In this document: piece by piece, positions 9,584-29,092 of the stretch | How positions within the stretch are numbered: position 1 is the stretch's first letter | How the letters are laid out: every line of letters starts with the position of its first letter | From: Ochrobactrum sp. Marseille-Q0166 | Lineage (GTDB): Bacteria; Pseudomonadota; Alphaproteobacteria; Rhizobiales; Rhizobiaceae | Length of the DNA stretch: 64,000 bases | Direction of reading: 5' to 3' | NCBI RefSeq assembly: GCF_014397025.1 | Contig: NZ_JACJUO010000003.1 | Span: 462,501-526,500 of the forward strand | Notes under the pieces: generated by a model | The model's input: the letters and a program-made list of their open reading frames with translations, nothing else | The model's database searches: none | What the model was told of the DNA's origin: nothing | Made by a program: the position numbers and the translations under genes

Positions 9584-9636
9584 GACGCAGGATTGGAGAC
9601 CTGGTCCGCCGATCATCCGTTGCCTTCCTGCCGTTT

Positions 9637-10206: not shown

Positions 10207-10214
10207 GAGCAAAA

Positions 10215-10238
10215 TGTATACTAACCAGTGAATATACA
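10215..10238. promoter_or_regulatory. Candidate TetR operator
   Basis: TGTATA (10215-10220) and TATACA (10233-10238) form a perfect inverted repeat separated by 12 bases, centred between the divergent TetR gene and the hydrolase gene. Size, symmetry and position fit a TetR-family operator. Confidence 0.6.
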
Positions 10239-10267
10239 CAATTGCCTTTTGGGAATAGCTTTCCGGT

Positions 10268-11188
10268 ATGCGTGATACTCAAACTCACAAGAAGATCTCC
10301 GTGCGCCCGGTCGAGATTTCCGCTGGGGATGGCATACTGCTCGGCGGTCATCTGTGGCGCGATTGCGAGCGCGAAACGGTGGGAATTGTCATCATCAATT
10401 CCGCCACCGGGGTGCAGGCGCGCTACTACCATCGTTATGCCCGCTTCCTCGCAGGTTATGGCTTCACCGTGCTGACTTATGATTACCGCGGCATAGGTCT
10501 CTCGCGTCCAGAGCAGATGAGAGGATGCGCGTATCGTTGGCGGGATTGGGGTGAACTGGATTTCGAGGCCGCGATACAGTTTGTAAGGCGCGAGATCGGG
10601 GCGGACAGATTGTTTGTGGTCGGTCATAGCATCGGCGGTTTCCTGCCCGGTCTCGCCCCGAGTGGTCACCATATCAGCCGCATGCTGACGGTGGGAGCCC
10701 AATATGCCTGGTGGGGTGACTATGCGGCGGGTCAACGTCTGCGGCTGTTCTTCAAATGGCATGTGGTAATGCCAGTGCTGACATTAGCGTGCGGCTATTT
10801 TCCCGGTCGACGAATGGGTTGGTTAGAAGATCTTCCGGCGGGTGTTGCACATGAATGGAGCTTTCGAAGGTCCAGCTTCGAACGCAATCACCCGGTGGCT
10901 GAACGCGAGAGGGCGCTGGAGCGCATGGCGGCCATGACGGCGTCCATACTTGCCGTTACGATCTCCGATGACGAGTTGGGGACGCCCGCTGCCATCCGCC
11001 GCACACTTGATTATTACACCCATGCCGAGCGAACAGCGGTTTTGCTTCGGCCATCGGATTACGGCCGCGATGCGATCGGTCATTTCGGCCTGTTTCACGA
11101 TAGCCATGCCGCCGGCTTCTGGCTCGATACGCTCATTTGGTTGCGCGACGGCCGTAATCCCTGGCCGGCCTTTATTATTGATTTATGA
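10268..11188 (+). CDS. Alpha/beta hydrolase
   Basis: A 306-aa serine hydrolase with no signal peptide. The nucleophile elbow is VVGHSIGG (serine about residue 121). Early strands include VIINSATGVQARYYHRYARFL and LTYDYRGIGLS, and the histidine is probably in GHFGLFHDSH near the C-terminus. The sequence recalls predicted lipase/esterase proteins of the YheT-like group. It starts the operon with the glutathione transferase gene and is divergent from TetR. Substrate unknown. Confidence 0.88.
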   Translation: MRDTQTHKKISVRPVEISAGDGILLGGHLWRDCERETVGIVIINSATGVQARYYHRYARFLAGYGFTVLTYDYRGIGLSRPEQMRGCAYRWRDWGELDFEAAIQFVRREIGADRLFVVGHSIGGFLPGLAPSGHHISRMLTVGAQYAWWGDYAAGQRLRLFFKWHVVMPVLTLACGYFPGRRMGWLEDLPAGVAHEWSFRRSSFERNHPVAERERALERMAAMTASILAVTISDDELGTPAAIRRTLDYYTHAERTAVLLRPSDYGRDAIGHFGLFHDSHAAGFWLDTLIWLRDGRNPWPAFIIDL

Positions 11189-11201
11189 TCGGAGGTCCTT
11201 C

Positions 11202-11855
11202 ATGCATCGTCTCTATTATTCACCAGGAGCCTGCTCGCTTGCCGTTCACATCATCCTGCAGGAAATAGGCGAACCCTATGAGGCCGAAGTCCGTTCGGCG
11301 AGGAATGGGGAGGGGACAACCACGGCGGACTATCTGGCCCTCAATCCCAAGGGACGCGTTCCGGCCCTCACCGGTGTTGCGGGTGGTTCAGGCGGCGCAC
11401 CCAACCTTCTGACGGAAGCAATCGCTATCCTTCTCTTTCTCGCTCGCAGCCATCCCGAGGCGAAACTGCTACCTGCCGATCCGGATGGCGAGGCGCGGTG
11501 TGTGGAATGGCTAAGCTGGATTTCTGTTGATCTCCATGGGATCGGCTATGGACAATTCTGGCGGCCGCACCGGTTCGTGCGAGATCCGGCGCTTCATGAG
11601 GCGGTCAGGGATAAGGGGCTGCAGAATATCCGCTCTGCCTATGATCATATCGATCTCATCTTGTCCGATAGACGCGACTGGGCCGTGCCTGGACAATACA
11701 CGATAGTCGACGCGTATCTTCTTGTATTCTGGCTATGGGGCTATCGGATCGGCCTGGCCATGGACGCCGACTGGCCGGAATGGGCGCGTCTAATGTCAAA
11801 GGTTCTGGAACGCCCAGCGGTGAAACAGGCGCTCACTCAGGAGGGGCTTTCTTAA
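11202..11855 (+). CDS. Glutathione S-transferase
   Basis: A 217-aa GST. The N-terminal thioredoxin-like domain has LYYSPGACSLAVHIILQE (catalytic SPGACS region), NPKGRVPAL (cis-proline loop) and LTEAIAILLFLA, all typical of beta/theta-class bacterial GSTs. The C-terminal helical domain includes YTIVDAYLLVFW. A perfect GGAGG lies seven bases before the ATG and the gap to the hydrolase stop is only 13 nt. Together with the hydrolase and TetR this looks like a small detoxification operon. Confidence 0.92.
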   Translation: MHRLYYSPGACSLAVHIILQEIGEPYEAEVRSARNGEGTTTADYLALNPKGRVPALTGVAGGSGGAPNLLTEAIAILLFLARSHPEAKLLPADPDGEARCVEWLSWISVDLHGIGYGQFWRPHRFVRDPALHEAVRDKGLQNIRSAYDHIDLILSDRRDWAVPGQYTIVDAYLLVFWLWGYRIGLAMDADWPEWARLMSKVLERPAVKQALTQEGLS

Positions 11856-11938
11856 GAAGATCCGTCCTCATGCCTGACGATGGTGCGCGGGTTGATCCCG
11901 TGAGTATCGGGGAAATCATACTTTACGGCGGTAACGCG

Positions 11939-12014
11939 CCCTCGTTCGTGAGCTTGGCCAAGACGGATACGAGAAATCTGGTGCTAATCTGGTCGCGTTG
12001 CAGCACGTCCAACT
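11939..12014 (+). pseudogene. 3' remnant of a DUF736 gene
   Basis: The stretch reads PSF, then a deletion, then SLAKTDTRNLVLIWSRCSTSN. It matches the end of the intact DUF736 protein at 19397-19714 (PSF...YASLVEADNEELALIWSRRRATN). The stop codon is changed. It marks where the conserved mobile-element backbone resumes after the 3.3-11.9 kb cargo. A hairpin follows, GGCCACCC (12027-12034) with GGGTGGCC (12040-12047), in the same relative place as the hairpin after the intact copy. Confidence 0.7.
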
Positions 12015-12090
12015 ACGAAAGCCCACGGCCACCCAATGAGGGTGGCCTCGCCTTACTTCTGCCCGCCACGATCTGAAACGCGGAGCGCTT

Positions 12091-12381
12091 CGCGCGCTTT
12101 GTCGTGATCGGCTGCGGCTGAAGCCTTGCCGATCCTTTAGGGGAAGCCAAGGAGCGTTGCCCCTTTCTCCCCTCAAACGCCGCCTGCACATGGCAGGGCC
12201 GCCCGCTTCTCAGGACGGCCCACATCTCTCACCGCCATCATATTCCGATTCCGTCCCGCTCGCCGCGCAGCCCGGCCATGCTCGCCGGCATTTGTCCCCT
12301 CCCATCCCCAGGGCTCGCGCCCCCCCGGGAGGCATGTCGGGGACATGCCTCCGGCATTTACGAGAGATAAGGATTGGAACA
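12091..12381 (+). promoter_or_regulatory. Conserved ~290-nt leader, copy A (before the ParB-like gene)
   Basis: This untranslated leader is closely similar over its whole length to 19796-20088. Shared structures include GATCGGC (12106-12112) with GCCGATC (12128-12134), an AGGGGA...TCCCCT pair, the block CCCGCTTCTCAGGACGG, and GGCATGTC (12331-12338) with GACATGCC (12342-12349) just upstream of the ribosome binding site. The following genes are unrelated, so the conservation points to a cis-acting role, or to a recent duplication. Confidence 0.7.
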
Positions 12382-14859
12382 ATGGCAAGGACTGCGAAGA
12401 AGACGAAGGCCGTCACTGTTGCGACGGCGGAAAATGCAGCGAAGGATGCGGAAATCCGCAGCGTCAGGGATGTGGCGGCGGAGGTGGTGGCGGCATTGCC
12501 CGCGCCGGAACCGGAACCCGCTATGACCGAACAAGCCGAAACCGTGGCGGCGGAACCCGCGAACGCCCCGGAACCGGAAACCATCGCGGAAGCCGCGACC
12601 GGCACGGAAATCTTCATTCCCCTCAACAAACTCAAGAAGTCGCCGCGCAATGCGCGGAAGACCCCGCACAGCCAAGAGCATATTGAAGCCCTTGCGGCCA
12701 GTATTGCCGCCAAAGGGCTTTTCCAGAACCTTGTGGTGGAACCGGAAGTCAATGAGGCTGGCGAAGCAACCGGCTTCTATTTCGTGACCATAGGAGAAGG
12801 CCGCAGGCTGGCGCAGCTTTTGCGCGTCAAGAGCAAGGAAATCAGAAAGACGGAACCTATCCGTTGCGTTCTGGACACCGCTAACGACCCGCAGGAAATC
12901 AGCCTTGACGAGAACGTGACGCGGGCGAACATGCACCCCGCCGACGAGTTCGAAGCCTTCCGCGAGCTTGCGGACAATCGTGGATGGGGAGCGGAGGAAA
13001 TTGCCGCCCGTTTCGGCATTTCCGCCCATGTTGTGAAGCGGCGGCTTCGCCTTGGCGCTGTCAGCCCCAAGTTGATGCAGGTTTACCGCGAAGGCGATTT
13101 GACGCTAGATCAGCTTATGGCCTTCGCTATCACCGATGACCATGCACGGCAGGAGCAGGTATTCGAGAACCTGCATTATAACAAAGACCCGTCGATTATC
13201 CGCCGCGACCTGATCCGGACCCATGTGCAGGCAAACGACCGCAAGGCCGTCTTTGTCGGACTCGAAGCCTATACGGAAGCGGGTGGCACGATCATTCGCG
13301 ACCTGTTTAGCGAAGATCGCGGCGGCTATTATGACGATCCCGCGCTTCTGGACCAGCTTGTTCTTGCCAAGCTGGAAGGCATCGCCACCGACATTCAGGC
13401 GGAAGGCTGGAAATGGGCGGAAGCCTCTATTGATTTCCCCCATGCGCACGGCATGAGCCGTTTCTATCCGCATGCGCTCGAATTGTCGGAAGAAGACGAA
13501 GCCGCCTATGCCACCTTGCAGGAGGAATACGACGAGCTTGCATCGGAGCATGACGGCGCGGACGAGCTTCCCCCTGATGTGGCCGAGCGGTTTCAAGCGC
13601 TGGCGGATTCCATCGCCAGCATTGATGCACGGCGTCACGGCTATGACCACGATGAAGTGAAGCGCGGCGGCATGTTCGTCACGCTGAACCATGACGGAAC
13701 CGCCCGCATCGAACGCGGTTTCATCCGGCCCGAGGATGAAGCACCGGAGCCGGAACCGGAGGAAGACGAGAACGCGAGCGGCGAAACCGTCATCGACGGC
13801 GTTCGCGTCAATGCGGACGGCGAAGTTCTCGAGGATGGTTCCAGCCCGGACCCCGATAGCGACGGCGACGAGGAACCGGAAGGAGACGCGGGCCAGCCGG
13901 TTTCCGATATTCTCACCCGCGACCTGACAGCCCACCGGACGCTTGGCCTTCGCCTTGCGCTTGGAGAGCAGCCGGAGATAGCCTTGATCGCCGTCACCCA
14001 TGCGCTTGCCGCGCAGACGTTCTATCTTGGAGCGAACGCTCATACTCTCGAAATCCGCCCGACCAAAGCTCACCTTGGCGACCACGCGGCGGGCATCGAG
14101 GATACGGCGGCGGCGAAGATGCTGGCGGATCGCCATGCGGGGTGGGCTTGCGACATGCCGCAGAACGTGGCGGACCTTTGGGACTTCATCGCCGGTCTGG
14201 ACCATGCAAGCGTCATGGCACTGTTTGCGCATTGCGCATCGTTGACCGTCAATGCCCTGAAACTGCCTTGGGAGCATAAGCGCCGCGCTTATGAAACCGC
14301 CGACAAGCTGACAACCGCGCTTGCGCTGGACATGAGCCAGTATTGGACGCCGACCGTCAGTTCCTATCTTGGCCGCGTCACCAAGGCCCATATCCTTGAG
14401 GCTGTCGTGGACGGGGTAGGCTACGGAGCCGCCGAGCGCATCAAGGACAAGAAGAAGCAGGAAATGGCGGAAAACGCCGAGCAGCTTCTGGCCGGAAGTG
14501 GATGGCTCCCGCCGCTTCTGCGCACCGAGCGGCCCTCATGGCAGGACGAACCGCAGCAGGCAGAGGCGGAGGCGGAAGCCGAAACCGTTGCGGACGCACC
14601 CGAAACCATAGAGTCGGAAGACCCGGAAGACATTGCGGCGGATGCGGCGGAACCTGCCATGCCGGAACCGGAAGCATCGGAGCCTGCCGGACCCGATGCG
14701 GAGGAAGTCACGGAAACCGACGCGGCAGGGTACGCCGAGCCGGAGGAAGCGCCCACCTTGGATGACGTGCCGGACCCTGATGTGCCGGAACCGGAGGAAA
14801 CTGCCCCGGATATGGAAGACGTCGAAGACGGCGCGGCCTTCTATGAAGCCGCCGAGTGA
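12382..14859 (+). CDS. ParB/Srx-domain plasmid-type protein
   Basis: An 825-aa protein. After an Ala/Glu/Pro-rich N-terminus, residues about 75-260 form a ParB-type domain: IFIPLNKLKKSPRNARKT, GLFQNLVVEP, TIGEGRRLAQLL and the helix-turn-helix IAARFGISAHVVKRRLRLG. The middle and C-terminal parts contain Glu/Asp/Pro-rich linkers. Large ParB-like proteins of this kind are standard in alphaproteobacterial plasmids and ICEs and are assumed to act in partition or gene control. The ATG is chosen for the AAGGA upstream. It is preceded by the conserved leader. Confidence 0.88.
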   Translation: MARTAKKTKAVTVATAENAAKDAEIRSVRDVAAEVVAALPAPEPEPAMTEQAETVAAEPANAPEPETIAEAATGTEIFIPLNKLKKSPRNARKTPHSQEHIEALAASIAAKGLFQNLVVEPEVNEAGEATGFYFVTIGEGRRLAQLLRVKSKEIRKTEPIRCVLDTANDPQEISLDENVTRANMHPADEFEAFRELADNRGWGAEEIAARFGISAHVVKRRLRLGAVSPKLMQVYREGDLTLDQLMAFAITDDHARQEQVFENLHYNKDPSIIRRDLIRTHVQANDRKAVFVGLEAYTEAGGTIIRDLFSEDRGGYYDDPALLDQLVLAKLEGIATDIQAEGWKWAEASIDFPHAHGMSRFYPHALELSEEDEAAYATLQEEYDELASEHDGADELPPDVAERFQALADSIASIDARRHGYDHDEVKRGGMFVTLNHDGTARIERGFIRPEDEAPEPEPEEDENASGETVIDGVRVNADGEVLEDGSSPDPDSDGDEEPEGDAGQPVSDILTRDLTAHRTLGLRLALGEQPEIALIAVTHALAAQTFYLGANAHTLEIRPTKAHLGDHAAGIEDTAAAKMLADRHAGWACDMPQNVADLWDFIAGLDHASVMALFAHCASLTVNALKLPWEHKRRAYETADKLTTALALDMSQYWTPTVSSYLGRVTKAHILEAVVDGVGYGAAERIKDKKKQEMAENAEQLLAGSGWLPPLLRTERPSWQDEPQQAEAEAEAETVADAPETIESEDPEDIAADAAEPAMPEPEASEPAGPDAEEVTETDAAGYAEPEEAPTLDDVPDPDVPEPEETAPDMEDVEDGAAFYEAAE

Positions 14860-14863
14860 ACCG

Positions 14864-14949
14864 CATGGCCGGAGCCGTACACGCGGTTCCGGCCTCTTCC
14901 CCCATTGCTCCGAGGGTAGTTCCGGCCGCGCCGCAATCGGCGCGGCCGG
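14864..14949 (+). other. Two strong GC-rich hairpins after the ParB-like gene
   Basis: GGCCGGA near 14864 pairs with TCCGGCC near 14885. Then CCGGCCGCGCCG (14922-14933) pairs perfectly with CGGCGCGGCCGG (14938-14949) around a CAAT loop. No T-run follows, so these are not classical terminators; they may set transcript stability or attenuate read-through to the next gene. Confidence 0.6.
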
Positions 14950-14979
14950 GAACCTCGACGGATCGCAGGAACCACGACA

Positions 14980-15336
14980 ATGAATATCTATGCCGAGCAG
15001 CGGGCAATGCTGGCCCGCATGGTCAGAACGCGGGAGGAAACCCACCGCCATATCGAAATCATCAGGCGGCAGATCGAGAAGCGCGCCGAGCGCATGACCA
15101 TCACTGCCCGCCTCAAGACCCGCCAGTATGGCCGCATGAAATCCACATGGACCCGCGCCGACGAACGTGACTATCGGGAGAATGCCGCGCAACTCCGTTT
15201 CCAGCGGCGCGGCGAAATCGACGCGCTCACCCGCAAGCTGGAACGGCAGGACGCGGCTATCGCCGTCTTCCGTGACCGTTACCGGCTTAACGAGAATGCA
15301 GCGCGATGGGCAGTACCGGAGGAAATGGCGTCATGA
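14980..15336 (+). CDS. Small coiled-coil protein of the element backbone
   Basis: A 118-aa, very basic, helical protein. The first 45 residues (ARMVRTREETHRHIEIIRRQIEKRAER) and residues 68-97 (QLRFQRRGEIDALTRKLERQDA) are predicted coiled coil. No family is recognised. Its stop overlaps the start of the DUF2958 gene (ATGA), implying translational coupling. Such small basic proteins are common next to ParB-like genes in alphaproteobacterial ICEs. Confidence 0.65.
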   Translation: MNIYAEQRAMLARMVRTREETHRHIEIIRRQIEKRAERMTITARLKTRQYGRMKSTWTRADERDYRENAAQLRFQRRGEIDALTRKLERQDAAIAVFRDRYRLNENAARWAVPEEMAS

Positions 15337-15709
15337 CACGGCGATTTCCCCGAACTGAAACCCTGCTCCCTGACGATCTGCGCACCGCGCTGATCGCCAA
15401 TGGTCTCGCCAGCGAGAAACGGGAGGATTTCGACCCGCGCCCTGTCGTGAAGCTGTTCACCCCGGACGGTTCCGCGACATGGCTGATAAGCGAGGCATAC
15501 GAGGAAACGGACGGCGATTTGCGGCTATTCGGCTTGTGTGACCTTGGCTTTGGCAGTCCCGAACTTGGCTATGTCATGCTGTCTGACACATCGAAGACGT
15601 GCGCGGCGGGCTTGGCCTGCCGGTCGAGCGCGACCTGTATTTCAGGGCCGAATATCGCCTCAGCCGATACGCCGAAATCGCAAACCACGCGGGAAGGATT
15701 GTCGCCTGA
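15333..15709 (+). pseudogene. DUF2958 protein gene, frameshifted
   Basis: The first 85 codons encode a typical DUF2958 start (LLPDDLRTALIANG, DFDPRPVVKLFTPDGSATWL, LFGLCDLGFGSPELGYVML). At SD the frame breaks; the family sequence continues two bases out of phase as IEDVRGGLGLPVERDLYF and RAEYRLSRYAEIANHAGRIV, ending at TGA 15707-15709. The cause is most simply an extra AC in the ACAC at 15586-15589. If translated as it stands, the product has an unrelated tail. Confidence 0.8.
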
Positions 15710-15780
15710 AACACGTTCCGGCGCGTCAGACACTGATGCGCCGGTACGGCCAATCGAATGAACCGCATGGGAGACTGGAA

Positions 15781-16200
15781 TTGATCGTGCTGATTACATT
15801 ATCCGTCGTGCTGATTTGCGCCATGTGTTCGCTCGCCTATATGCTGGCAACCTATGCCGTGCCGTTCCTGTTCGCCGTCATAGCAACCCGCTTCGCCTTC
15901 GCCACCGGAGCCGGTTATATCGGCGCTGGCATCGTTGGTCTGTTCGCGGGCGTAGGCGCTTACGGCTTTCTTGTCTATCTTTATGCCACGCTGCGCTCAC
16001 CGGGACTGCGTCTCGCCATTGCACTGTTATTCGCGTTTCCTGCTGCCATTGCAGGTTTCGCCCTGGTGCATGGCATCGCCCGCGAGGCGATTCCGTCCGA
16101 AGTCTGGCGGAAAATCTTTTCTCTCATCGGTGGCGGGTTCGTTGGCCTGTCGGCGCTGGCTCGGCTCGCCGGTACTACCATGTTTCTGGATAAGGAATAG
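15781..16200 (+). CDS. Small membrane protein, four helices
   Basis: A protein of about 139 aa read from a TTG codon with GGGAG seven bases before it. The region upstream in the same frame is the wrong frame of the DUF2958 gene. It has hydrophobic segments at about residues 3-25, 40-62, 70-90 and 110-130. No family is recognised. It follows the DUF2958 gene after 71 nt, in backbone orientation. Confidence 0.6.
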   Translation: MIVLITLSVVLICAMCSLAYMLATYAVPFLFAVIATRFAFATGAGYIGAGIVGLFAGVGAYGFLVYLYATLRSPGLRLAIALLFAFPAAIAGFALVHGIAREAIPSEVWRKIFSLIGGGFVGLSALARLAGTTMFLDKE

Positions 16201-16281
16201 CTGGAAACGGGCGGCGACATGCCAACCGCATCTCCCCGTGTTCTGACGGGTTGGAACTGTAAACTACAGCATCCCAACTGG

Positions 16282-16869
16282 TCATCTCAGGACGTTAAGC
16301 GCTGGCGCAATCAAGGCTTTCAGTTCATCCCGCGTTGCACCATCCCTTGCCTGAAATGAAATCATCTGCATAACGCCGTGGATGAAGGCAGCGCGTTGCG
16401 GAATGTCGCAATCAAGGGGCAGTTCTCCAGCAACATGCGCATGTTCGAGGCGGGTGTGTATGAGTTCGCGCGTCTTGGTGCGCGCGGCTTTGAGATGTGT
16501 CCGTGCAGGTTCGTTCTCCGGCAGACAGTTCACGACGCCAAGAACTAGCAGACAGCCACCGGGGCATGTGGATAGGGCAACATCAATACTGGCGTGAAGC
16601 ATACGCTCCACCCCTTCGTGCAGGGTCGCGGCATCGTCCAACTCCTGCATTGGTCTTGCGCCGACCGTTGCAATGTAGTGGTCCACTGCCTCACAAAAAG
16701 CCGCTTCCTTGGAGCCGAAGGCTGCGTAAAAGCTGGGTGGTGCGATCCCTGCCGCCGCTGTGAGATCGACCAATTGCGCGCCCTCATAGCCGCGCGCCCA
16801 GAACACTTCCATCATCGCATGAAGGGCAGCATCCCGGTCGAAACCGCGTGGGCGACCGCGTTGAGCCAT
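16282..16869 (-). CDS. TetR/AcrR family regulator
   Basis: A 195-aa TetR regulator starting MAQRGRPRGFDRDAALHAMMEVF, with helix-turn-helix LVDLTAAAGIAPPSFYAAFGSKEAAF. The C-terminal part (TCPGGCLLVLGVVNC) matches the TetR_C group seen in regulators of small-molecule detoxification genes. It is divergent from the SnoaL-like gene across a 101-bp gap that holds TCACTACA twice (16891-16898 and 16948-16955), candidate operator halves. Confidence 0.9.
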   Translation of the reverse strand: MAQRGRPRGFDRDAALHAMMEVFWARGYEGAQLVDLTAAAGIAPPSFYAAFGSKEAAFCEAVDHYIATVGARPMQELDDAATLHEGVERMLHASIDVALSTCPGGCLLVLGVVNCLPENEPARTHLKAARTKTRELIHTRLEHAHVAGELPLDCDIPQRAAFIHGVMQMISFQARDGATRDELKALIAPALNVLR

Positions 16870-16970
16870 GATTTATCCATTCTTTCATTTTCACTACAAT
16901 ATTCTATTGACCGGCTGCGGTGAGAGCAATAGTCATTTATTGAAATCTCACTACAGAAAAGGATAGGACC

Positions 16971-17372
16971 ATGACCACTTCTCCCCGCGCCGTTATCGAA
17001 GAGTTTTTCCGCCGTGCCGGTTCGGGCGAACCCGTCGAAAGAATCGCGGAGTTGGTCAGCGAGCAGGTCGATTGGTTTGTAGCGGGCGACACGAGCGTCG
17101 TGCCTTGGATTGGGCGCAAAATTGGACGGAAAGGCGCAGCGGAGTTCTACGCGCAGATCAGGGAGCAGATTGCATCCGAGGCTTTTGCGGTGTGGGAAAT
17201 CCTATCGCAAGGCAATCGAGTTGTAGCAATCGGTGAGCTTGCGTCTCGCGTTCTGCGGACGGGTAAGCTGATCGAGTCAGAATTTTGCTTTGATTTCATC
17301 GTGGAGAATGGCGAAATCACTCGCTTCCGTTTGTTCGAGGATAGTTTCGCTGTGGCAAAAGCCGCCGTATGA
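16971..17372 (+). CDS. SnoaL-like / NTF2-fold protein
   Basis: A 133-aa protein of the NTF2 fold, with AVIEEFFRRAGSGEPVERIAELVSE at the N-terminus, then VDWFVAGDT, WIGRKIGRKGAAEFY and RFRLFEDSFAVAKA at the end, typical of SnoaL/ketosteroid-isomerase-like proteins. AAAGGA precedes the ATG. Divergent from the TetR gene, it forms a two-gene cargo module. Its biochemical role is unknown. Confidence 0.85.
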   Translation: MTTSPRAVIEEFFRRAGSGEPVERIAELVSEQVDWFVAGDTSVVPWIGRKIGRKGAAEFYAQIREQIASEAFAVWEILSQGNRVVAIGELASRVLRTGKLIESEFCFDFIVENGEITRFRLFEDSFAVAKAAV

Positions 17373-17526
17373 TTTTCTTTGGTGTGAGCAGCTAACATCA
17401 ATGGCAATTTGGAATTGGTGGAGCCTGTATTCCGATATAGAGCGTTTCCCTATCTGAATGAATCGGATGGCTTTGCAAATCAGCTCGTTTCTGATTCAAA
17501 CTATCTGCCGATGGAGGTCGGCAGAT

Positions 17527-17889
17527 ATGTCAAAGGCCCTTTCTGTTGATCTTCGTACCCGTGTTGTTGCTGCCGTGTCGGCTGGTGCATCGCATCGAGA
17601 GGCTGCAGAGCGGTTTGGCGTTGGTGTGGCGAGCGTCAGCCGTTGGCGCACCTTGCAAATTCAAAAAGGGAATGTTCGTCCCGGTCCCCTCGGAGGTGAC
17701 CGCAATTCCCGCAAGACGGAAGCTTACGCTGATCTGATTATGGCTTGGCTCGGCGAGCATCGCGACGGCACCTTGTTCGAGTTGCGTGATGCTCTGTCTG
17801 CGCAAGGTGTCGTCATCAGCAAGTCGGCGTTACACCGTTTCCTTGTCCGGCACGACCAAACACGCAAAAAAAGACTGGCCATGCGGTAG
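17527..17889 (+). CDS. IS630 transposase, first ORF (DNA-binding part)
   Basis: A 120-aa ORF starting MSKALSVDLRTRVVAAVSAG, with helix-turn-helix HREAAERFGVGVASVSRWR, typical of the IS630 N-terminal domain. GGAGG lies upstream of the ATG. Near its end is AAAAAAA (17866-17872), where a -1 slip moves ribosomes into the second frame. Without a slip the product ends at TAG shortly after. Confidence 0.9.
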   Translation: MSKALSVDLRTRVVAAVSAGASHREAAERFGVGVASVSRWRTLQIQKGNVRPGPLGGDRNSRKTEAYADLIMAWLGEHRDGTLFELRDALSAQGVVISKSALHRFLVRHDQTRKKRLAMR

Positions 17890-17909
17890 AGCAAAGCCGT
17901 CCGGATCTT

Positions 17910-18473
17910 TTGGAAATGCGTCAGTCCTGGTTTGACAAACAGCTCGATCTCGATCCTGCACGGCTGGTTTTTATCGACGAGACATGGACCGCAACCAATA
18001 TGGCCCGCACGCACGGACGCTGTCTCAAGGGCGAGCGGCTGCGAATGGGCTTCCCACACGGTCATCGCAAGACAACGACACTTGTTGCCGGATTGCGAAA
18101 CACAGGAATGGTCGCACCCCTTGTCATTGACGGACCGATCAATGGTGAATGGTTCGAGGCTTATGTCGGTCAGGTTCTCGTTCCGACATTGAAGCCAGGC
18201 GATATCGTCATTCTCGACAATCTTTCCAGTCACAAACGACCGGCAGCACGTGAGATAATCGAAGCCGTGGGTGCGAGGCTGATGTTCCTGCCGCCATACA
18301 GCCCAGACTTCAATCCCATAGAAAAGGCGTTCTCCAAGTTGAAAGCCCTCCTGCGAAAAGCCGCAGAGCGAACCGTCAGCGACCTTTGGGACAGGATTGG
18401 AAAAATCGTCGAACTCATTGATCCGCAGGAAGCGCAAAACTACTTCGCATCTTGCGGATACGATCCACTATGA
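17910..18473 (+). CDS. IS630 transposase, second ORF (DDE catalytic part)
   Basis: A DDE-superfamily catalytic domain of 187 aa if started at 17910. The acidic residues are visible in FIDETW, ILDNLSSHK and NPIEKAFSKLK. Read back in the same frame to the A7 run, the peptide KTGHAVEQSRPDLLEMRQSW is continuous, so the natural product is a frameshift fusion with the first ORF of about 315 aa. The element appears intact and possibly active. Confidence 0.9.
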   Translation: MEMRQSWFDKQLDLDPARLVFIDETWTATNMARTHGRCLKGERLRMGFPHGHRKTTTLVAGLRNTGMVAPLVIDGPINGEWFEAYVGQVLVPTLKPGDIVILDNLSSHKRPAAREIIEAVGARLMFLPPYSPDFNPIEKAFSKLKALLRKAAERTVSDLWDRIGKIVELIDPQEAQNYFASCGYDPL

Positions 18474-18730
18474 TAGGGAAACGCTCTAAAATCGAACGGG
18501 GAGCAGGATTGGAGACGTGTCTGGTTTGAGAAATCGAAATGAACGGGCAGCTTGGGCGTCTCTCTGGCAGAGAGATATGGGCGTTGCCCTGCGGGCCGGG
18601 CTGTCGGCTTCGCTGAAGCCCGCTAAAGCAGTCTTCACCCTTCGGGCTTCCATCCCTAACGCAAGGGATGGCGGCGGCGGGCATTCGCCCGGAGAGGCCC
18701 CTCTTCCGCAAGGCCGGACCAATGGCCTGT

Positions 18731-19072
18731 TCAGTCGATGACACAGCAACACGACCAGATCAGGACCATATCCTCGCTATCCGCCCCGGCCATGCTCGCA
18801 TGGAGGCGAACGAAGCGCAAAACAAGGAATCATCCAGCTTCACCGAGAGGCAGGGATTGCCCCGCGCTGGACAGGCAGCTCCTTCCATGCCGCTCCGAAC
18901 TCGGTGGCTCCAGCAAACAGCATGGGCGGAAGTCCGGCCCGTTTTCGGTTTCGCCTCATGACAGCCGAGAGGGAACTTCACCGACTTGACGTTGAGATTG
19001 AGGGGCATGCCTGCGAGGGAGCCAGCGAAACCGTTGTCGGTGCGGAAGAAAGCGCTGACCGATAGCAGCCAT
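18731..19072 (-). pseudogene. DUF736 gene, inverted degenerate copy
   Basis: The minus strand starts ATGGCTGCTATCGG and reads DNGFAGSLAGMPLNLNVK exactly as in the intact gene at 19397-19714, but small insertions near the start and after VKF shift the frame. Later fragments (KTGRTSAHAV, LSVKLDD) appear in different frames. It faces away from the intact copy, so the two are head to head around a 324-bp gap. It is inactive as a gene but shows that DUF736 was duplicated by inversion. Confidence 0.8.
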
Positions 19073-19396
19073 GACATGATTTCCTTTTTCCGCCGACCGG
19101 ACCACGCCCACCGCGATCTCGATTGATCTGGTCTGACCGAAGACCGGCGACGCAAGCGCCGCCTCGATCTCAATCCTGCAACGTCCGGCGACAACTTTTT
19201 TCCGCCGCCCAACCACCCCATGCGGCGAGCCGCATGGGGACCCCGGCTTGGCTTTGCATCGCGAAACAAAAAAGCTGCCGCCGGCCGCCCTCCATTTCAT
19301 TCCGGCCCCAAGGGGTGCAGGCCGATCGTCCCCGGTCCATCGACCATCATCGAGACCGCGATGGGCGCGGCCCGATCAGCAGAAGGAAATCATGTC
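19073..19396. other. Gap between head-to-head DUF736 copies
   Basis: No gene is seen in this stretch. It contains a perfect palindrome (19216-19239), two copies of TTTTTCCGCCG (near 19084 and 19197) and repeated CTCGATCTC-type words. Divergent promoters for both DUF736 copies should lie here, but I cannot pick convincing -35/-10 boxes. Confidence 0.5.
19216..19239. promoter_or_regulatory. Perfect 24-bp palindrome
   Basis: CCCCATGCGGC (19216-19226) and GCCGCATGGGG (19229-19239) are perfect complements around GA. No T-run follows. Located midway between divergent DUF736 copies, it is a candidate operator or ParB-type binding site, or a stable RNA hairpin in the leader. Confidence 0.6.
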
Positions 19397-19714
19397 ATGG
19401 CTACTATCGGCACTTTCTCCCGCACCGACAACGGCTTCGCTGGCTCCCTCGCAGGCATGCCCCTCAATCTCAACGTCAAGTCGGTGAAGTTCTTGCCCGC
19501 CGAAGGCGAAACCGAAAACGGGCCGGACTTCCGCGTGTTCGCCGGAGCCACCGAGTTCGGAGCAGCATGGAAGAAGCAGTCCGTGCAGGGCAATTCCTAC
19601 CTCTCGGTGAAACTGGACGATCCCTCGTTCCCCTCTCCGATCTATGCGAGCCTGGTCGAGGCGGACAACGAGGAACTGGCCCTGATCTGGTCGCGCCGCC
19701 GCGCCACCAACTGA
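19397..19714 (+). CDS. DUF736 family protein (intact copy 1)
   Basis: A 105-aa DUF736 protein: IGTFSRTDNGFAGSLAGM at the start, then KFLPAEGETENGPDFRVFAG, EFGAAWKK, LSVKLDDPSFPSPI and ALIWSRRR. DUF736 proteins are small, soluble and nearly universal on alphaproteobacterial plasmids and ICEs; their function is unknown. AAGGAAAT precedes the start. It is followed by a GAAA-capped hairpin and then the leader of the DUF932 gene. Confidence 0.9.
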   Translation: MATIGTFSRTDNGFAGSLAGMPLNLNVKSVKFLPAEGETENGPDFRVFAGATEFGAAWKKQSVQGNSYLSVKLDDPSFPSPIYASLVEADNEELALIWSRRRATN

Positions 19715-19730
19715 ACAGGCCACCGGCCCG

Positions 19731-19748
19731 GCCCCGCGAAAGCGGGGC
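19731..19748 (+). terminator. GAAA-capped hairpin after DUF736
   Basis: GCCCCGC (19731-19737) pairs with GCGGGGC (19742-19748) around GAAA. Only TT follows, so termination would be weak; it may instead stabilise the DUF736 transcript. Confidence 0.5.
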
Positions 19749-19795
19749 TTCGCCATGCTCATGCCCGCCGCCGCCATCATCAATACGGAGTGCTA

Positions 19796-20088
19796 CGCGC
19801 GCTTTGTCCTGATCGGCTGCGGCTGAAGCCTTGCCGATCATGAGGGGAAACCAAGGGGCCTTAACCCCTTTCTCCCCTCAAGTTCCGCCTGCGCATGGCA
19901 GTGTCGCCCGCTTCTCAGGACGGTTCACTGTTTTCATGGTCTTCGTTTTCCAATCCGTCCCGCTTGCGCGCAACCCGACCATGCTCGCCGGCACTTGTCC
20001 CCTTCCATCCCCGCGCGCTCTCGCGCCCCCGGAAGGCATGTCGAGGGATATGCCTTCGGCAATTAAGGGAAAAAGAGGAGTAAGGACC
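19796..20088 (+). promoter_or_regulatory. Conserved ~290-nt leader, copy B (before the DUF932 gene)
   Basis: The second copy of the leader found at 12091-12381. It keeps GATCGGC (19811-19817) with GCCGATC (19833-19839), the CCCCTTTCTCCCCTCAA block, CCCGCTTCTCAGGACGG, and a weaker GGCAT...ATGCC hairpin (20035-20054) before the ribosome binding site. As with copy A it follows a DUF736 3' end, so the duplicated unit is DUF736 end plus leader. Confidence 0.7.
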
Positions 20089-21285
20089 ATGAATGTCATC
20101 ACCAGCAGCCACAACAGCCAGCCAATCAACAAGGGTTTTCGCGTGGACATTTCGCGCGGCGTGAACATCGACCGCGTTTCGTCGGAATGGTTTTCGCGGC
20201 CGGACGACGAGCGTTTTCTTTCGCTGACCGCGCTTTACAACGCCGTGAAGATGCGGGCGGATCGCGCCACGGCCCGCACCGTCGAAAGCCGCGCCGTGCG
20301 CGTAGACGCCAGCCGCGACAATGCGGAGAGGCTTTCGCTTATCGTCCCCGGACAGGAAGAACCGATTGCCCCGACGCATTGGAGTTTCGGCCAGCTTTGC
20401 AGCCTTGTCGGCACACCGGCCAGTTACATGCGCCAGCTTCCCGCGCCGCTGGCGGGCATCAACCTACAGCACGGCTTGCTTTCGCATCGCGCCGAACTGG
20501 TCAAGACGCTGGAAACGGAGGACGGCCGCAATGAATTGCGCGCCGTGACCGGCCCGGATTATGGCCGAATCTGGGATCATGAGCTTGTCGCCGCCGTGAT
20601 GAAGATCGCGGGCAACGGCGTCGGCGATACCATGTGGAAGGTGCCGGGCGTTCTGGATTGGGCGACCATGACACACAATCCTTTCGTCGACGTGACCAAG
20701 GACACGACCACGCTTTACGCTTCGGATCGTGACGTCTTCCTGTTTCTGGTGGACGATACGCACCCCATTGAAGCCGGACGCCTGCCGAATGGCGAGCCGG
20801 ACCTTTATTTCCGCGGCTTCTATTGCTGGAATAGCGAAGTCGGCAGCAAGACGCTCGGCATCGCCTCATTCTACCTGCGTGCGGTTTGCATGAATCGGAA
20901 TTTGTGGGGCGTCGAAAATTTCGAGGAAATCACCATCCGCCACAGCAAGTTCGCGGCACAGCGTTTCGCCCATGAAGCTGCGCCCGCGCTTCGCAGCTTC
21001 GCCAATTCCAGCCCCGCGCCCTTCATTGCCGGGATCAAGGCTGCAAGGGAAAGGATCGTCGCCCATAACGACGAAGACCGCGAAAGCTTCCTTCGCCGTC
21101 GCGGGTTTGGCAAGGCCGAAACCGGCAAGATCATTGAGACCGTCTTGCAGGAGGAAGGCCGGCCCCCGGAGAGTATCTTTGACTTTGTGCAGGGTATGAC
21201 CGCCCATGCCCGCACCAAGACCAATCAGGATACTCGCCTTGAACTGGAGGGAAAGGCGAAGGCCTTGCTTGAACGGGCATCCTGA
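20089..21285 (+). CDS. DUF932 family protein
   Basis: A 398-aa protein of the DUF932 (phage/plasmid-like TIGR03299-related) family, with FSRPDDERFLSLTALYNAV, WSFGQLCSLVGTPASYMRQLPA, LRAVTGPDYGRIWDHELV, LYASDRDVFLFLVDD, YFRGFYCWNSEVGSKTLG and RNLWGVENF. Such proteins are widespread on plasmids and ICEs and are of unknown function, sometimes grouped with early-transfer genes. GAGGAGTAAGG gives a strong ribosome binding site at this ATG. It has the conserved leader. Confidence 0.9.
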   Translation: MNVITSSHNSQPINKGFRVDISRGVNIDRVSSEWFSRPDDERFLSLTALYNAVKMRADRATARTVESRAVRVDASRDNAERLSLIVPGQEEPIAPTHWSFGQLCSLVGTPASYMRQLPAPLAGINLQHGLLSHRAELVKTLETEDGRNELRAVTGPDYGRIWDHELVAAVMKIAGNGVGDTMWKVPGVLDWATMTHNPFVDVTKDTTTLYASDRDVFLFLVDDTHPIEAGRLPNGEPDLYFRGFYCWNSEVGSKTLGIASFYLRAVCMNRNLWGVENFEEITIRHSKFAAQRFAHEAAPALRSFANSSPAPFIAGIKAARERIVAHNDEDRESFLRRRGFGKAETGKIIETVLQEEGRPPESIFDFVQGMTAHARTKTNQDTRLELEGKAKALLERAS

Positions 21286-21295
21286 CCGCCCATGC

Positions 21296-21321
21296 CCGCG
21301 CCGTCAGAAATGGCGGCGCGG
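21296..21321 (+). terminator. GAAA-capped hairpin after DUF932
   Basis: CCGCGCCGTCA (21296-21306) pairs with TGGCGGCGCGG (21311-21321), one mismatch, around GAAA. No T-run. It resembles the hairpins after the DUF736 and ParB-like genes, so each early-region transcript seems to end in a strong hairpin. Confidence 0.45.
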
Positions 21322-21494
21322 TCTTGCCGCAGATTGCGCCGATCCTTTCCGCAAAGCCCGGTTTCAGTCACCGTCAAACCGGATCGGCGGCGTCCGCGCC
21401 TGGATGGCACAGACGCCGCTCGCCGGTCTGCGACCGGCTCGCTAAATCACGCACAGGTTTTTCGACGAGCCACTTTTCCTTTCCCGGAATAACT

Positions 21495-21523
21495 AGTATA
21501 TTGGGTGGAAGTATATTAGGTAG
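21495..21523. promoter_or_regulatory. Tandem repeats before the XRE regulator
   Basis: AGTATATTGGGTGG (21495-21508) and AGTATATTAGGTAG (21510-21523) are direct repeats with a 15-bp period, 18 bp before the XRE start. They look like operator half-sites for autoregulation, possibly overlapping the promoter. Confidence 0.5.
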
Positions 21524-21540
21524 TCGGTGACAGCTTTCCC

Positions 21541-21753
21541 ATGAGCTTACGGGAAAGAGTCGCCAAGAACCTGCGTCGGTTGAGACATGAGCGATCCATG
21601 TCACAGGAAGAACTCGCCCATCGTGCCAAGATCAACCGTAACTATGTCGGTATGCTTGAGCGGGAAGAATACGCAGTTTCCGTCGACACGCTCGAAAAGC
21701 TCGGCGCAGCCCTCGGCGTTGATCCGATCGAATTCTTCCGCGAATATCCCTGA
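21541..21753 (+). CDS. XRE family helix-turn-helix regulator
   Basis: A 70-aa protein that is almost entirely an XRE/Cro-type helix-turn-helix: LRERVAKNLRRLRHERSMSQEELAHRA, NRNYVGMLER and VDTLEKLGAALGVDPIEFF. Single-domain XRE repressors of this length commonly keep conjugation or excision genes off in ICEs. Tandem repeats directly upstream suggest autoregulation. It stands at the left border of the replication and transfer genes. Confidence 0.9.
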   Translation: MSLRERVAKNLRRLRHERSMSQEELAHRAKINRNYVGMLEREEYAVSVDTLEKLGAALGVDPIEFFREYP

Positions 21754-21905
21754 GAGACGCGCCAAGGCAGACCGATACTTTTTGCTGAGACGTTTCAGCG
21801 ATAAGGTTATTCCGCAATTGCGGATATTGCCGTCATGAACCTGTCACCCTGCGAACGGATAAAATACTGGTCCGTTTCTAGCGTAGCTTTCGGCGAAGAG
21901 GTCCC

Positions 21906-22169
21906 ATGAACAAGCCTTTGAGGGATGACGGCCCGCCCTTGACCGACAGGGTGAACGCCTACGACGAAACCCATCTGGCCACCTATCTGCGTCTTCTGGA
22001 CGCCGATGAGGAGGGCGCGGACTGGCGCGATGCCATAAGGATCATCTTCGGCATTGACGTCGAAGCCGATCCGGAACGCGCCAGACGCATCCACGAAACA
22101 CACCTTGCACGCGCCCGCTGGATGACAGAAATCGGCTATCTCCATCTTCTCCAACCGCGCATGCAATAG
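21906..22169 (+). CDS. Small DUF2285-like protein
   Basis: An 87-aa protein: LTDRVNAYDETHLATYLRLLDADEEGADWRDAIRI followed by DVEADPERARRIHETHLARARWMTEIGYLHLL. This is the compact form of the DUF2285-type domain found on alphaproteobacterial ICEs beside a replication initiator. AGAGG precedes the ATG. The domain is thought to be DNA-binding, but that rests on family annotation as I recall it. Confidence 0.8.
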   Translation: MNKPLRDDGPPLTDRVNAYDETHLATYLRLLDADEEGADWRDAIRIIFGIDVEADPERARRIHETHLARARWMTEIGYLHLLQPRMQ

Positions 22170-22285
22170 CTGGTTCCGTTCCTTCAGCGCAGTACAAGGC
22201 CCTATTCCAATTTTCTGTATTCCGGCTTCGGAAACTTCCCCAATACTCGCTTCATCCCAAGGTTGAGTTTCCCAAGGGGAGTGGC

Positions 22286-23537: not shown

Positions 23538-23549
23538 CCGGACGCCGCC

Positions 23550-24422: not shown

Positions 24423-24438
24423 GCAACCTGTGGACAGA

Positions 24439-25705: not shown

Positions 25706-25741
25706 ACGGCTCGTTTCTCCAACCGAATGAGGTTTACCGCT

Positions 25742-27081: not shown

Positions 27082-27326
27082 ATTTCGTGGTGCCGGGTGG
27101 TCTAACGCGCGTCATCGTAGCTCATGCGGGATGGCGGGGAGGGGCGGCGGCAACGTCCGATGTAAGGCAAGATAAAAGGCCGCACATCGCGGCTTGGACG
27201 GTCGGTTGTTTTGATTGGCTTTTTCCCGGCTTTCCGCACATCGCGGGCCATAAGTGCGATGTGCGCACCCTGAATTTACTGAATATTTTCAACGAAACCT
27301 GCACCTCGCAGCGAGTAACCCCATGA
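27078..27326 (+). CDS. Small ORF overlapping both neighbours at ATGA
   Basis: An 82-aa frame (MNFVVPGGLTRVIVAHAGWRG...) whose ATG overlaps the transglycosylase stop and whose TGA overlaps the relaxase start, four bases at each end. A ribosome binding site (AGGAGGAA) precedes it. The peptide itself has no recognised family, and the DNA contains candidate oriT repeats. It may be a coupling ORF whose passage delivers ribosomes to the relaxase, or the exact overlaps may be coincidence. Confidence 0.4.
   Translation: MNFVVPGGLTRVIVAHAGWRGGAAATSDVRQDKRPHIAAWTVGCFDWLFPGFPHIAGHKCDVRTLNLLNIFNETCTSQRVTP
27181..27265. other. Candidate oriT region
   Basis: The decamer CGCACATCGC occurs at 27181-27190 and 27235-27244, and its reverse complement GCGATGTGCG at 27256-27265, forming one direct and one close inverted repeat. 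The region is immediately upstream of the relaxase gene, the usual place for an origin of transfer in this type of element. A nick site cannot be pinpointed. Confidence 0.45.
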
Positions 27327-29092
27327 GCCGGGACGACGATTTCCGCGTGCGGCCTGGCCGCATCCGCTCCAGCAAGGCCCAGCGGGCAAGGCCGTTTGTC
27401 GCGCAGGCGCTTGCCGCCGCGCAGAAGGCCGGCGGGTATGTCTCCCGTTCCGGCAAGATCACGTCCGGTAAGGGTCGTGGACCGAGCTTCGCTCGCGGCC
27501 GCGTGGCAAGCGCGCGCGCCAATCGTCTCATCACTAACCGCACCCGTTTCTGCACGGTAAAGGCGCGCATTGTCCGCAACAAGGGCGACCGTGGCCCGCT
27601 TGCCCGTCACCTCAACTATCTTCGCCGTGATGGCGTCACCCGCGCCGCGAACGAAGTGAGCAATGGGGAGCAACACGAAAAAGCCCGCATGTTCGGTCCC
27701 GAAACCGACAATGCCGACGCAAAGGAATTTGCCGATCAGTGCAAGGACGATCGGCATCATTTCCGGTTCATCGTCTCGCCGGAAGATGCCGCCGATATGG
27801 AAGACCTGAAGCGGTTCACCCGCGAGCTGATGGCGCAGGCGGAAAAGGATCTCGGCACGAAACTCGAATGGGTGGGCGTCGATCACTGGAACACCGACAA
27901 TCCCCATGTGCATGTCATCGTGCGCGGCCGCGCCGACGACGGGCAAGACCTCGTGATAGACCGCGATTATATCAAGAGCGGATTGCGCGACCGGGCGCAG
28001 GATCTCGTGACGCTGGAATTGGGACCGCGCACCGAATTGGACATACGCCGTTCGTTGGAACGACAGATAGAGGCCGACCGCTGGACACAGCTTGATCGTC
28101 AGCTTCTCCGTGACGCCAACGAGCAGGGCATCATCGACGTTGCTCCGTCTCCGGATAAGCAGCCCGACGAATATTCCATCCAGAAGATCGGCCGGCTTCG
28201 TCACCTCGAACATCTCGGCCTGGCTGAAAACGTCGGTCCCGGCCAATGGGTCGTATCCGGCGAGGCCGAAGCCACCTTGCGCGAGCTTGGGCTACGCGGC
28301 GACATCATCAAGCGGATGCACCGCGCCTTGACGGAGCAGGGCATCGAGCGCGGCGCTGCCGATTACGTGCTGTCCGGCGAGGCGCATGGCGAGCCGGTCA
28401 TTGGCCGGCTGGTCGAGCGTGGCTTGGACGACGAGTTGCGCGGCACGGCCTTCGCGGTGGTCGACGGCGTGGACGGCCACATTCACCATATCCGCCTTCC
28501 CGATATTGAAGCCGCCGGGGACAGCGCGCCGGGTTCCATTGTCGAACTGCGCTCTTTCGAGGATGCCCGTGGCGAGCGCCGCGTCGCGCTGGCCGTTCGT
28601 TCCGATCTCTCCCTTGAGGCGCAAGCCACGGCCGACGGCGCCACATGGCTCGACCGCCAGCTTGTCGCCCGCGTTTCCGTCGATCTCGGCGGCGGCTTCG
28701 GACTGGAGGTGAGCCAGGCGATGGAGGCGAGGGCCGAACATCTGATCGAAGAGAGGCTGGCACGGCGCGAGGGCGAGCGGGTTATCTTCGCCCGCAATCT
28801 TCTCGGCACGCTCCGCGAACGTGAACTGGACGCACTCGGCGAAAAGCTCTCTCAAGAAATGAACATGCCGTTCCGCGAAGCGGCCGCCGGGGAATATGTC
28901 GCCGGCACCTACAGCCGGCGTTTCACCCTGGCATCCGGCCGCTTCGCGATGGTCGATGATGGTCTCGGCTTCAGCCTCGTGCCGTGGACGCCTTCCGTGG
29001 AGAAGCATATCGGCCAGCACATATCCGGCGTGGGCCGCGCCGACGGCGGCGTTGACTGGAGCTTTGGCCGCAAGCGTGGGCTTGGCTTGTGA
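27323..29092 (+). CDS. Relaxase with DUF3363 domain (VirD2/TraA-like)
   Basis: A 589-aa mobilisation relaxase. The N-terminus is basic; the nuclease domain spans about residues 75-215, with LARHLNYLRRDG, DRHHFRFIVSPEDA, GVDHWNTDNPHVHVIVRG (metal-binding His 195 and 197 of the HxH motif) and DYIKSGLRDRAQDLVTLELGPRT. The C-terminal half is DUF3363, standard for relaxases of alphaproteobacterial ICEs. It nicks oriT and leads the DNA through the TraG channel. The start is the ATG overlapping the preceding small ORF. Confidence 0.92.
   Translation: MSRDDDFRVRPGRIRSSKAQRARPFVAQALAAAQKAGGYVSRSGKITSGKGRGPSFARGRVASARANRLITNRTRFCTVKARIVRNKGDRGPLARHLNYLRRDGVTRAANEVSNGEQHEKARMFGPETDNADAKEFADQCKDDRHHFRFIVSPEDAADMEDLKRFTRELMAQAEKDLGTKLEWVGVDHWNTDNPHVHVIVRGRADDGQDLVIDRDYIKSGLRDRAQDLVTLELGPRTELDIRRSLERQIEADRWTQLDRQLLRDANEQGIIDVAPSPDKQPDEYSIQKIGRLRHLEHLGLAENVGPGQWVVSGEAEATLRELGLRGDIIKRMHRALTEQGIERGAADYVLSGEAHGEPVIGRLVERGLDDELRGTAFAVVDGVDGHIHHIRLPDIEAAGDSAPGSIVELRSFEDARGERRVALAVRSDLSLEAQATADGATWLDRQLVARVSVDLGGGFGLEVSQAMEARAEHLIEERLARREGERVIFARNLLGTLRERELDALGEKLSQEMNMPFREAAAGEYVAGTYSRRFTLASGRFAMVDDGLGFSLVPWTPSVEKHIGQHISGVGRADGGVDWSFGRKRGLGL

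Follow-up and report, generated by a model that had tools for sequence, protein, structure and literature searches.

A repeated, structured leader before ParB-like and DUF932-type genes of an alphaproteobacterial integrative and conjugative element: a candidate single-stranded-DNA control element

Introduction

The leading proteins of the F plasmid are produced early and transiently during conjugation, and deletion of either of its control elements, Frpo1 or Frpo2, abolishes early expression of the tested fusions behind them, which then show no significant increase (PMC9849209). Early expression from incoming single-stranded DNA (ssDNA) has been reported for F and proposed for enterobacterial IncI plasmids, and sequences homologous to Frpo are present in ColIb-P9 (PMC9849209). 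Here, we describe a leader that occurs twice, before a ParB-like gene and before a DUF932-type gene, in an integrative and conjugative element (ICE) of Ochrobactrum sp. Marseille-Q0166. The element lies in a stretch of 64,000 nucleotides (NCBI RefSeq assembly GCF_014397025.1, contig NZ_JACJUO010000003.1, positions 462,501 to 526,500 of the forward strand), which we call the window and whose own coordinates are used throughout. We consider it somewhat probable that this leader is an Frpo-like ssDNA control element, located in the leading region of the ICE and serving early expression in the recipient.

In F, the leading region includes ssb and psiB together with a ParB-like and a DUF932 gene; one Frpo copy lies before ssb (58199-58642) and the other before a small gene and DUF932 (63588-64011). 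Thousands of Frpo homologues and candidates have been collected by BLAST (E 1e-6) and by their -35/-10 boxes, in a study whose main text does not mention Alphaproteobacteria, Agrobacterium or DUF932 (PMC11541004). In IncI-type plasmids, the sites ssi1-ssi3 precede leading operons that encode SSB, the partly ParB-like YfhA, PsiB-PsiA and ArdA (PMC10104558). In gene order, the window resembles the ICEMlSymR7A-like elements of Mesorhizobium, in which rdfS, traF, a transglycosylase gene and rlxS follow one another and DUF736 is often duplicated (PMC11963761, PMC8627217); in ICEMlSymR7A, oriT lies upstream of rlxS (PMC11963761). Neither DUF932 nor ParB occurs in the main texts of these two articles, nor does the word "leading" in that of PMC8627217. 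We found no open-access paper on Frpo and the leading region in Alphaproteobacteria, on DUF932 in ICEMlSymR7A or on the leading region of Mesorhizobium ICEs, which is weak evidence of absence.

The leader shares with Frpo1 and Frpo2 of F, as judged from a putative nic (below), its placement in the leading region and the use of the transferred strand as template, and also the presence of two copies per element and a position before operons with ParB-like and DUF932 homologues. The likeness extends to nested long-range helices in the covariation map and to better folding of the transferred strand, for the leader in the class to which the window belongs (class A, below). However, Frpo is described with -10 and -35 boxes, whereas the leader has no recognisable pair and no sequence similarity to Frpo. 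The leader also stands directly before the ParB-like and DUF932 genes, while in F these are preceded by others, ssb among them, and the relaxases differ, that of F being MOBF and RlxS being assigned to MOBP1 (PMC8627217). The ssi1-ssi3 sites likewise occur in several copies before leading-region operons, and ArdA is found behind the second leader class as well; they differ in host group and companion genes, and we liken them to the leader by description rather than by sequence comparison.

Results

The first-pass annotation of the window had proposed that one leader precedes two unrelated genes, and this is borne out: leaders 1 and 2 (Table 1) align at 80.8% identity over 323 columns (E 7e-78), and the proteins encoded behind them, ParB-like and DUF932-type, are members of different families. 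The match runs along the whole of the ~290 nucleotides described earlier, and the repeat is in fact longer, with 11950-12360 aligning to 19648-20065 at 77.8% over 424 columns (E 5.5e-81). Both copies contain the features that had been noticed, namely the GATCGGC/GCCGATC stem, C-rich blocks and a hairpin beside the ribosome-binding site; by eye, a 5' stem of the leader 1 type is present in only part of 35 aligned class A copies. With leader 2 as a DNA query, the host genome (4.44 Mb, 3 contigs) yielded only the two leaders and a 54-base stretch on the minus strand. A search of the whole window against Rfam at gathering score found rRNA and tRNA only and no match to the leaders, and relaxing the threshold to E 5 for positions 9000-26000 gave four weak matches, none within the leaders.

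The 5' end of the repeat overlaps the tail of a DUF736 gene, which is whole before leader 2 and, by eye, reduced to a remnant before leader 1. The remnant, at 11949-12010, looks as if a DUF736-leader unit had been copied or recombined there (by eye). Short, inverted and broken pieces of the flank comprising DUF736 and leader also occur at 18667-18797 and at about 18950-19300 (the second by eye), beside an insertion sequence; this IS630-like transposase, in two frames at 17458-18473, sits between the two leaders.

Profile searches revealed two leader classes across Alphaproteobacteria, class A, to which the window's leaders belong, and class B. We scanned named genomes by alignment with the ParB-like protein and kept as loci (labelled L) the best 80 of at least 575 confirmed matches, a set that was chosen through ParB, contains some near-duplicates and is not a census. 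A leader match (E 1e-3) was found in 73 of these 80 loci, 12 with class A and 61 with class B, and seven had neither; one of the 61 (L059) holds a 54-base fragment only. At the same threshold, which admits some short partial matches, the window leader matched 16/347 and the class B leader 41/397 genomes drawn from the order, and class A reached 24 of 119 genomes in the genus of genome G309. As for the genes, the short DUF932 protein matched 2/385 genomes in a class-wide search, the host being one of them, and the long DUF932 protein 67/346 genomes in a search of the host's family. That the repeat is more than a chance occurrence is confirmed by other elements, in which a leader pair precedes the same two kinds of gene. 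A third, partial class A copy was seen in Mesorhizobium sp. WSM4311 (L043:5401-5524). Class B leader pairs also turned up outside Alphaproteobacteria, in contigs named Pseudoxanthomonas and Modicisalibacter (L047, L057), which would reflect either transfer or a mixed assembly.

The genes behind the leader are of few kinds. Among 192 leader matches (73 class A and 119 class B, some places being counted twice under different locus numbers), the next gene was ParB-like in 87, a long DUF932 gene in 49, a short DUF932 gene in 44 (93/192 for the DUF932 types combined) and something else in nine, and three matches ran off the stretch. ArdA antirestriction genes stand behind three class B leaders (L184:1705-2229, L190:984-1508 and L210); two were confirmed by Pfam (E 4e-41 and 5e-41) and the third, in L210, is cut by the end of the stretch. 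The 3' hairpin of these ArdA-linked leaders is changed yet still paired (by eye). The remaining "other" cases, judged by eye, are five class A leaders with short frames, four of which resemble decayed ParB starts, and one class B leader. Where 800 bases or more of upstream sequence were available, 60 of 84 DUF932-type copies had DUF736 upstream; among the ParB copies, none of 80 did. Since the leader of an A. vitis plasmid is 78% identical to leader 2 and yet precedes the short DUF932 type, leader and gene are exchangeable. The F plasmid ParB-like protein is homologous to that of the window (28% over 690 aa, E 4e-55), and the F DUF932 protein to the short DUF932 protein of sister elements (48% over 277 aa, E 3e-94); between the F DUF932 protein and the long one of the window, BLASTP detected no similarity.

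Concerted evolution of the two copies within an element was considered and rejected, as the distances do not bear it out. The within-element distance was smaller than both same-gene medians in 2/11 class A elements (the window and L029) and 18/22 class B elements, and smaller than the distance to the nearest same-gene copy in 0/11 and 1/22, respectively.

Compensatory changes, which the first-pass annotation had suggested looking for, are present in both classes. Helices were identified by covariation that admits Watson-Crick pairs only and is therefore neutral between strands, from 55 distinct class A and 113 distinct class B copies. Class A shows hairpin A, in which 10 of 12 pairs have at least two Watson-Crick pair types, a nested set of helices P1, P2 and P3 with arms about 33 to 121 columns apart, and hairpins E and F. 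Class B shows a 5' hairpin, a nested set with the same layout and a 3' hairpin, to which a small hairpin was added by eye and then checked. Both classes thus follow one layout supported by compensatory changes, consisting of a 5' hairpin, a long interrupted stem, a small hairpin and a hairpin before the ribosome-binding site. The share of Watson-Crick cells is 0.88 in class A and 0.87 in class B, and sliding one arm by 1-4 columns lowers it to 0.27-0.35 and 0.28-0.42. RNAalifold, applied to MAFFT alignments, did not recover hairpin A in class A or the majority of the class B helices. Because classes A and B are not clearly similar in sequence (best E 0.002, for 17 bases close to the start codon), their common layout is a structural resemblance; it would be consistent with a common origin of the two classes.

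The direction of transfer was read from the pattern TATC[C/T]TG[C/T], which we take to be the P-type nic pattern. Of 20 elements examined upstream of the relaxase gene, 16, the window among them, have it on the minus strand and none has it on the plus strand; loci L071-L073 are alike, so that fewer than 16 of these elements are independent. In the window, the pattern, which is probably the actual nic, is separated by 7.1 kb from the start of DUF932 and by 14.8 kb from that of ParB. Given its orientation, the minus strand is expected to be the one that enters the recipient first, leftwards, and this is the template strand of both genes. A plus-strand nic motif just upstream of rlxS was dropped as a candidate, the pattern conserved across relatives being on the minus strand.

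Two approaches address which strand forms the structure. In the first, a stem formed in sense RNA should tolerate G:U pairs, while the G:T pairs tolerated by a stem formed on the minus strand should be visible as A:C on the plus strand. Changes from Watson-Crick pairs were counted as means over random Fitch reconstructions; the events are not fully independent and the p values are guides. Class A stems had 67.5 changes to A:C against 27.6 to G:T, compared with 181 against 225 for the corresponding substitutions in unpaired columns (p 7e-6). By starting pair, the A:C and G:T counts were 38.3 and 16.2 for GC, 13.2 and 3.6 for CG, 7.6 and 0 for TA, and 8.3 and 7.8 for AT, so the excess does not come from one arm alone, although AT shows none. 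Against summed slid pairs, the odds ratio was 1.9 (p 0.008). RNase P RNA from 30 genomes, taken through the same pipeline as a control, showed the opposite, with 18.7 changes to A:C against 101.9 to G:T (p 3e-10); its best covarying helices had 11.0 against 78.3 and its slid pairs 308.2 against 297.5. The leaders do not behave like RNase P sense RNA, from which they differ at p 1e-16 (class A) and 2e-11 (class B). RNase P replaced the cobalamin riboswitch as RNA control, since only 19 of 30 riboswitch sequences were recognised and 11 pairs remained (A:C 4.0 against G:T 2.0). An unrestricted hairpin count (A:C 26, 60 and 28 against G:T 9, 17 and 18) was discarded for including loose outer extensions.

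The second approach compared folds under DNA parameters with those of shuffled sequences (25 shuffles per strand for leaders, 20 for RNase P and 12 for Frpo). All 36 copies sampled from the 55 of class A were more stable as the minus strand, for which the mean z was -4.51 against -3.51 for the plus strand, being lower in 28/36 (p 4e-5). The transferred strand of Frpo was more stable in 16/16 copies (of 22; z -9.58 against -7.67, lower in 11/16, p 0.018), and the sense strand of RNase P in 12/12 (of 30; z -3.15 against -2.44, which is not significant at p 0.23). For window leaders 1 and 2, z was -3.16 and -5.00 for minus-strand DNA, -0.59 and -2.82 for plus-strand DNA, and -0.48 and -3.33 for plus-strand RNA. 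None of 200 shuffles folded as well as minus-strand DNA for either window copy, and by eye the long stem is in the minus-strand minimum-energy fold of both. These data support, to a moderate degree and for class A only, a fold that favours the minus strand.

Table 1. Positions of the leaders, their predicted helices and associated genes in the window
Feature	Position	Strand	Basis or remark
Leader 1, class A	12044..12381	+	Upstream of ParB-like gene; repeat traceable 11950 to 12360
Leader 1, 5' stem GATCGGC/GCCGATC	12106..12134 (12106-12112 x 12128-12134)	-	Predicted DNA fold
Leader 1, hairpin A	12139..12173 (12139-12155 x 12159-12173)	-	Predicted DNA fold; covariation
Leader 1, long interrupted stem	12174..12294 (12174-12205 x 12264-12294, then 12211-12218 x 12251-12258)	-	Predicted fold; helices P1, P2, P3 by covariation
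Leader 1, small hairpin E (12311-12322) and 3' hairpin F (12323-12356)	12311..12356	-	Predicted fold (small shifts between folds); covariation
ParB-like gene, 825 aa	12382..14859	+	Pfam HTH_ParB; homologue of F plasmid leading-region ParB-like protein
DUF736 gene before leader 2	19397..19714	+	Pfam DUF736; start codon by eye; tail within repeat
Leader 2, class A	19746..20088	+	Upstream of long DUF932-type gene; repeat traceable 19648 to 20065
Leader 2, 5' stem	19810..19840 (19810-19817 x 19833-19840)	-	Predicted DNA fold
Leader 2, hairpin A	19843..19878 (19843-19859 x 19864-19878)	-	Predicted fold; covariation
Leader 2, long interrupted stem	19879..19997 (19879-19911 x 19966-19997, then 19916-19923 x 19955-19962)	-	Predicted fold; covariation
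Leader 2, small hairpin E (20013-20026) and 3' hairpin F (20027-20061)	20013..20061	-	Predicted fold; covariation
Long DUF932-type gene, 398 aa	20089..21285	+	Alignment identity of 89% with a DUF932-annotated protein of Mesorhizobium ciceri
Putative nic, P-type pattern TATCTTG|CC	27166..27174	-	Predicted cut between 27167 and 27168, with the transferred strand extending leftwards
Relaxase gene (rlxS type)	27323..29092	+	Pfam DUF3363 and Relaxase

At E 0.001, the long DUF932-type protein itself did not match any Pfam family. Downstream lie genes for a DUF2285-type protein (Pfam RovC_DNA-bd), a helix-turn-helix protein, RepA, DUF2840, a signal peptidase, DUF736, a transglycosylase, the DUF3363 relaxase and TraG. 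Immediately after a tRNA-Met gene, within 1093-2847, comes a minus-strand gene for a large serine recombinase with Resolvase and Recombinase domains, which may be the integrase that marks an end of the element. On host contig C2, at about 1555013-1555879 and near the contig end, a class B leader stands with a short DUF932 frame that contains one stop, which may represent a second element in the same host or its remains.

Discussion

Our analysis identifies a leader that is Frpo-like in position, strand, gene company, copy number and fold, that is not Frpo by sequence, and in which promoter boxes were not found. The mechanism we propose starts from the relaxase, which would nick the minus strand at about 27167, so that the nicked strand would enter the recipient 5' end first and bring with it the region leftwards of nic. 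On the entering strand, both leaders may fold into hairpins, above all the long interrupted stem, and this fold could recruit the RNA polymerase of the recipient and perhaps serve priming too. The DUF932-type and ParB-like genes would then be transcribed from the leader, on the transferred strand, before a second strand exists, and conversion to double-stranded DNA would switch expression off. Such early and transient expression would presumably help the element to establish itself.

The first-pass annotation had put forward a shared RNA regulator, a common operator region and an ssDNA promoter as possible identities of the leader. Our results favour the ssDNA promoter, given the leading-region position, the match between template and transferred strand, the gene kinds held in common with Frpo operons and the minus-strand fold of class A; they disfavour the sense-strand RNA regulator and leave the common operator standing. 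The idea of a sense-strand RNA leader that would act like a riboswitch or bind a protein, and would regulate translation by means of the hairpin beside the ribosome-binding site, draws on a covarying structure that stops just before that site and on leader 2 RNA, which folds better than its shuffles (z -3.33) and forms the long stem. However, A:C is tolerated in the stems no less than G:U, the reverse of what RNase P shows, the RNA of leader 1 reaches a z of only -0.48, and Rfam has no match in the leaders at either threshold, which makes this idea quite improbable. Still more improbable is an antisense RNA made from the minus strand of the leader and controlling both genes: it would give the same strand preference, but no promoter-like site was found in the leader regions on the minus strand, and the gene kinds shared with Frpo operons would be left unexplained.

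Two further alternatives involve DNA itself. The hairpins of the transferred strand could be a single-strand initiation site and nothing more, priming the second strand, with their place before genes being secondary. This accounts for the strand, the leading-region position and the failure to find promoter boxes; for priming alone, however, any location would serve, whereas 183 of 192 matches are directly before a ParB-like, DUF932-type or ArdA gene and the leader ends at the ribosome-binding site. We regard it as unlikely. A double-stranded promoter-operator, through which one regulator of the element would switch both genes together, is likewise a minority possibility in our judgement. It would explain why the same leader stands before unrelated genes and why conserved blocks such as the C-rich stretch lie outside the strongest helices, and the case is stronger for class B, where strand preference is slight. 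As an explanation of the whole leader, it conflicts with the long-range compensatory pairing, which is not expected of an operator in helices with arms about 100 nucleotides apart, with the absence of a promoter-like site, and with the strand preference of class A, a cruciform having none.

Several observations weigh against an Frpo-like ssDNA control element, beginning with the reference system itself. A comparison of 22 Frpo copies with 168 leaders found no sequence similarity (best E 0.056, over 25 nucleotides), and a search of both strands of the two leader regions with the E. coli consensus, on linear sequence and leaving other promoter types open, found no sigma-70-like -35/-10 pair. The wobble test was flat on 22 similar Frpo copies (A:C against G:T, 12.0/11.1 and 8.0/6.9, p 0.79) and is thus unvalidated on a known case. 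Even in class A, slid pairs carry an excess of their own, with an A:C/G:T ratio of 0.77 to 2.20 depending on the shift, the 2.20 at shift +1 being near the real 2.44, and hairpin F is reversed (1.5 against 4.0). In class B the signal is weak: 54.4 changes to A:C against 34.7 to G:T gave p 0.03 versus unpaired columns, helices chosen by rule gave p 0.08 and 0.07, the odds ratio versus slid pairs was 1.45 (p 0.13), and helix P3 is reversed (3.0 against 7.0). In folds of class B, the minus strand was ahead in 31 of 36 sampled copies (of 113) by energy yet in 20/36 by z, with mean z values of -2.81 and -2.74 that do not differ (p 0.41). The plus strand of the window leaders can also form the long stem, as read by eye from minimum-energy folds, in leader 1 as DNA and not RNA, in leader 2 as RNA and not DNA. 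The nic pattern was not found in 4 of 20 elements (L004, L042, L050 and L100).

The distribution of the leader belongs with these points. Among 29 family-level loci with the long DUF932 gene (L109-L137), four have a class A leader and 25 have neither class. The leader is therefore not a fixed companion of DUF932; it accompanies one set of elements and not every DUF932 gene. The upstream stretches of these 25 loci resemble one another within other similarity groups (for example L129-L137), L128 resembling none, and when six of them were folded, the minus strand was better in three. Additional classes of leader may exist among the upstream groups of L113-L137. Because the plus strand forms the long stem too and 25 of 29 DUF932 loci lack the leader, we have slightly lowered the weight given to the Frpo-like reading.

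We further hypothesize, with a probability just below even, that alphaproteobacterial conjugative elements, including relatives of symbiosis islands, possess an ssDNA-promoter class of their own, unrelated in sequence to Frpo and devoid of classical -35/-10 boxes, that expresses ParB-like, DUF932 and ArdA genes from the incoming strand, the F system having either diverged from it beyond recognition or converged with it on a single design around the same genes. The comparison of G:T with A:C in stems offers a cheap strand test for structured DNA, for which validation on a known single-stranded promoter is still needed. If our hypothesis is correct, single-stranded promoters can do without the E. 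coli boxes that guided the search for new candidates (PMC11541004), and the ParB-like, DUF932 and ArdA genes would form a testable list of establishment genes. Early expression from incoming ssDNA would then be a broader rule of conjugation, reaching an element family that includes symbiosis islands.

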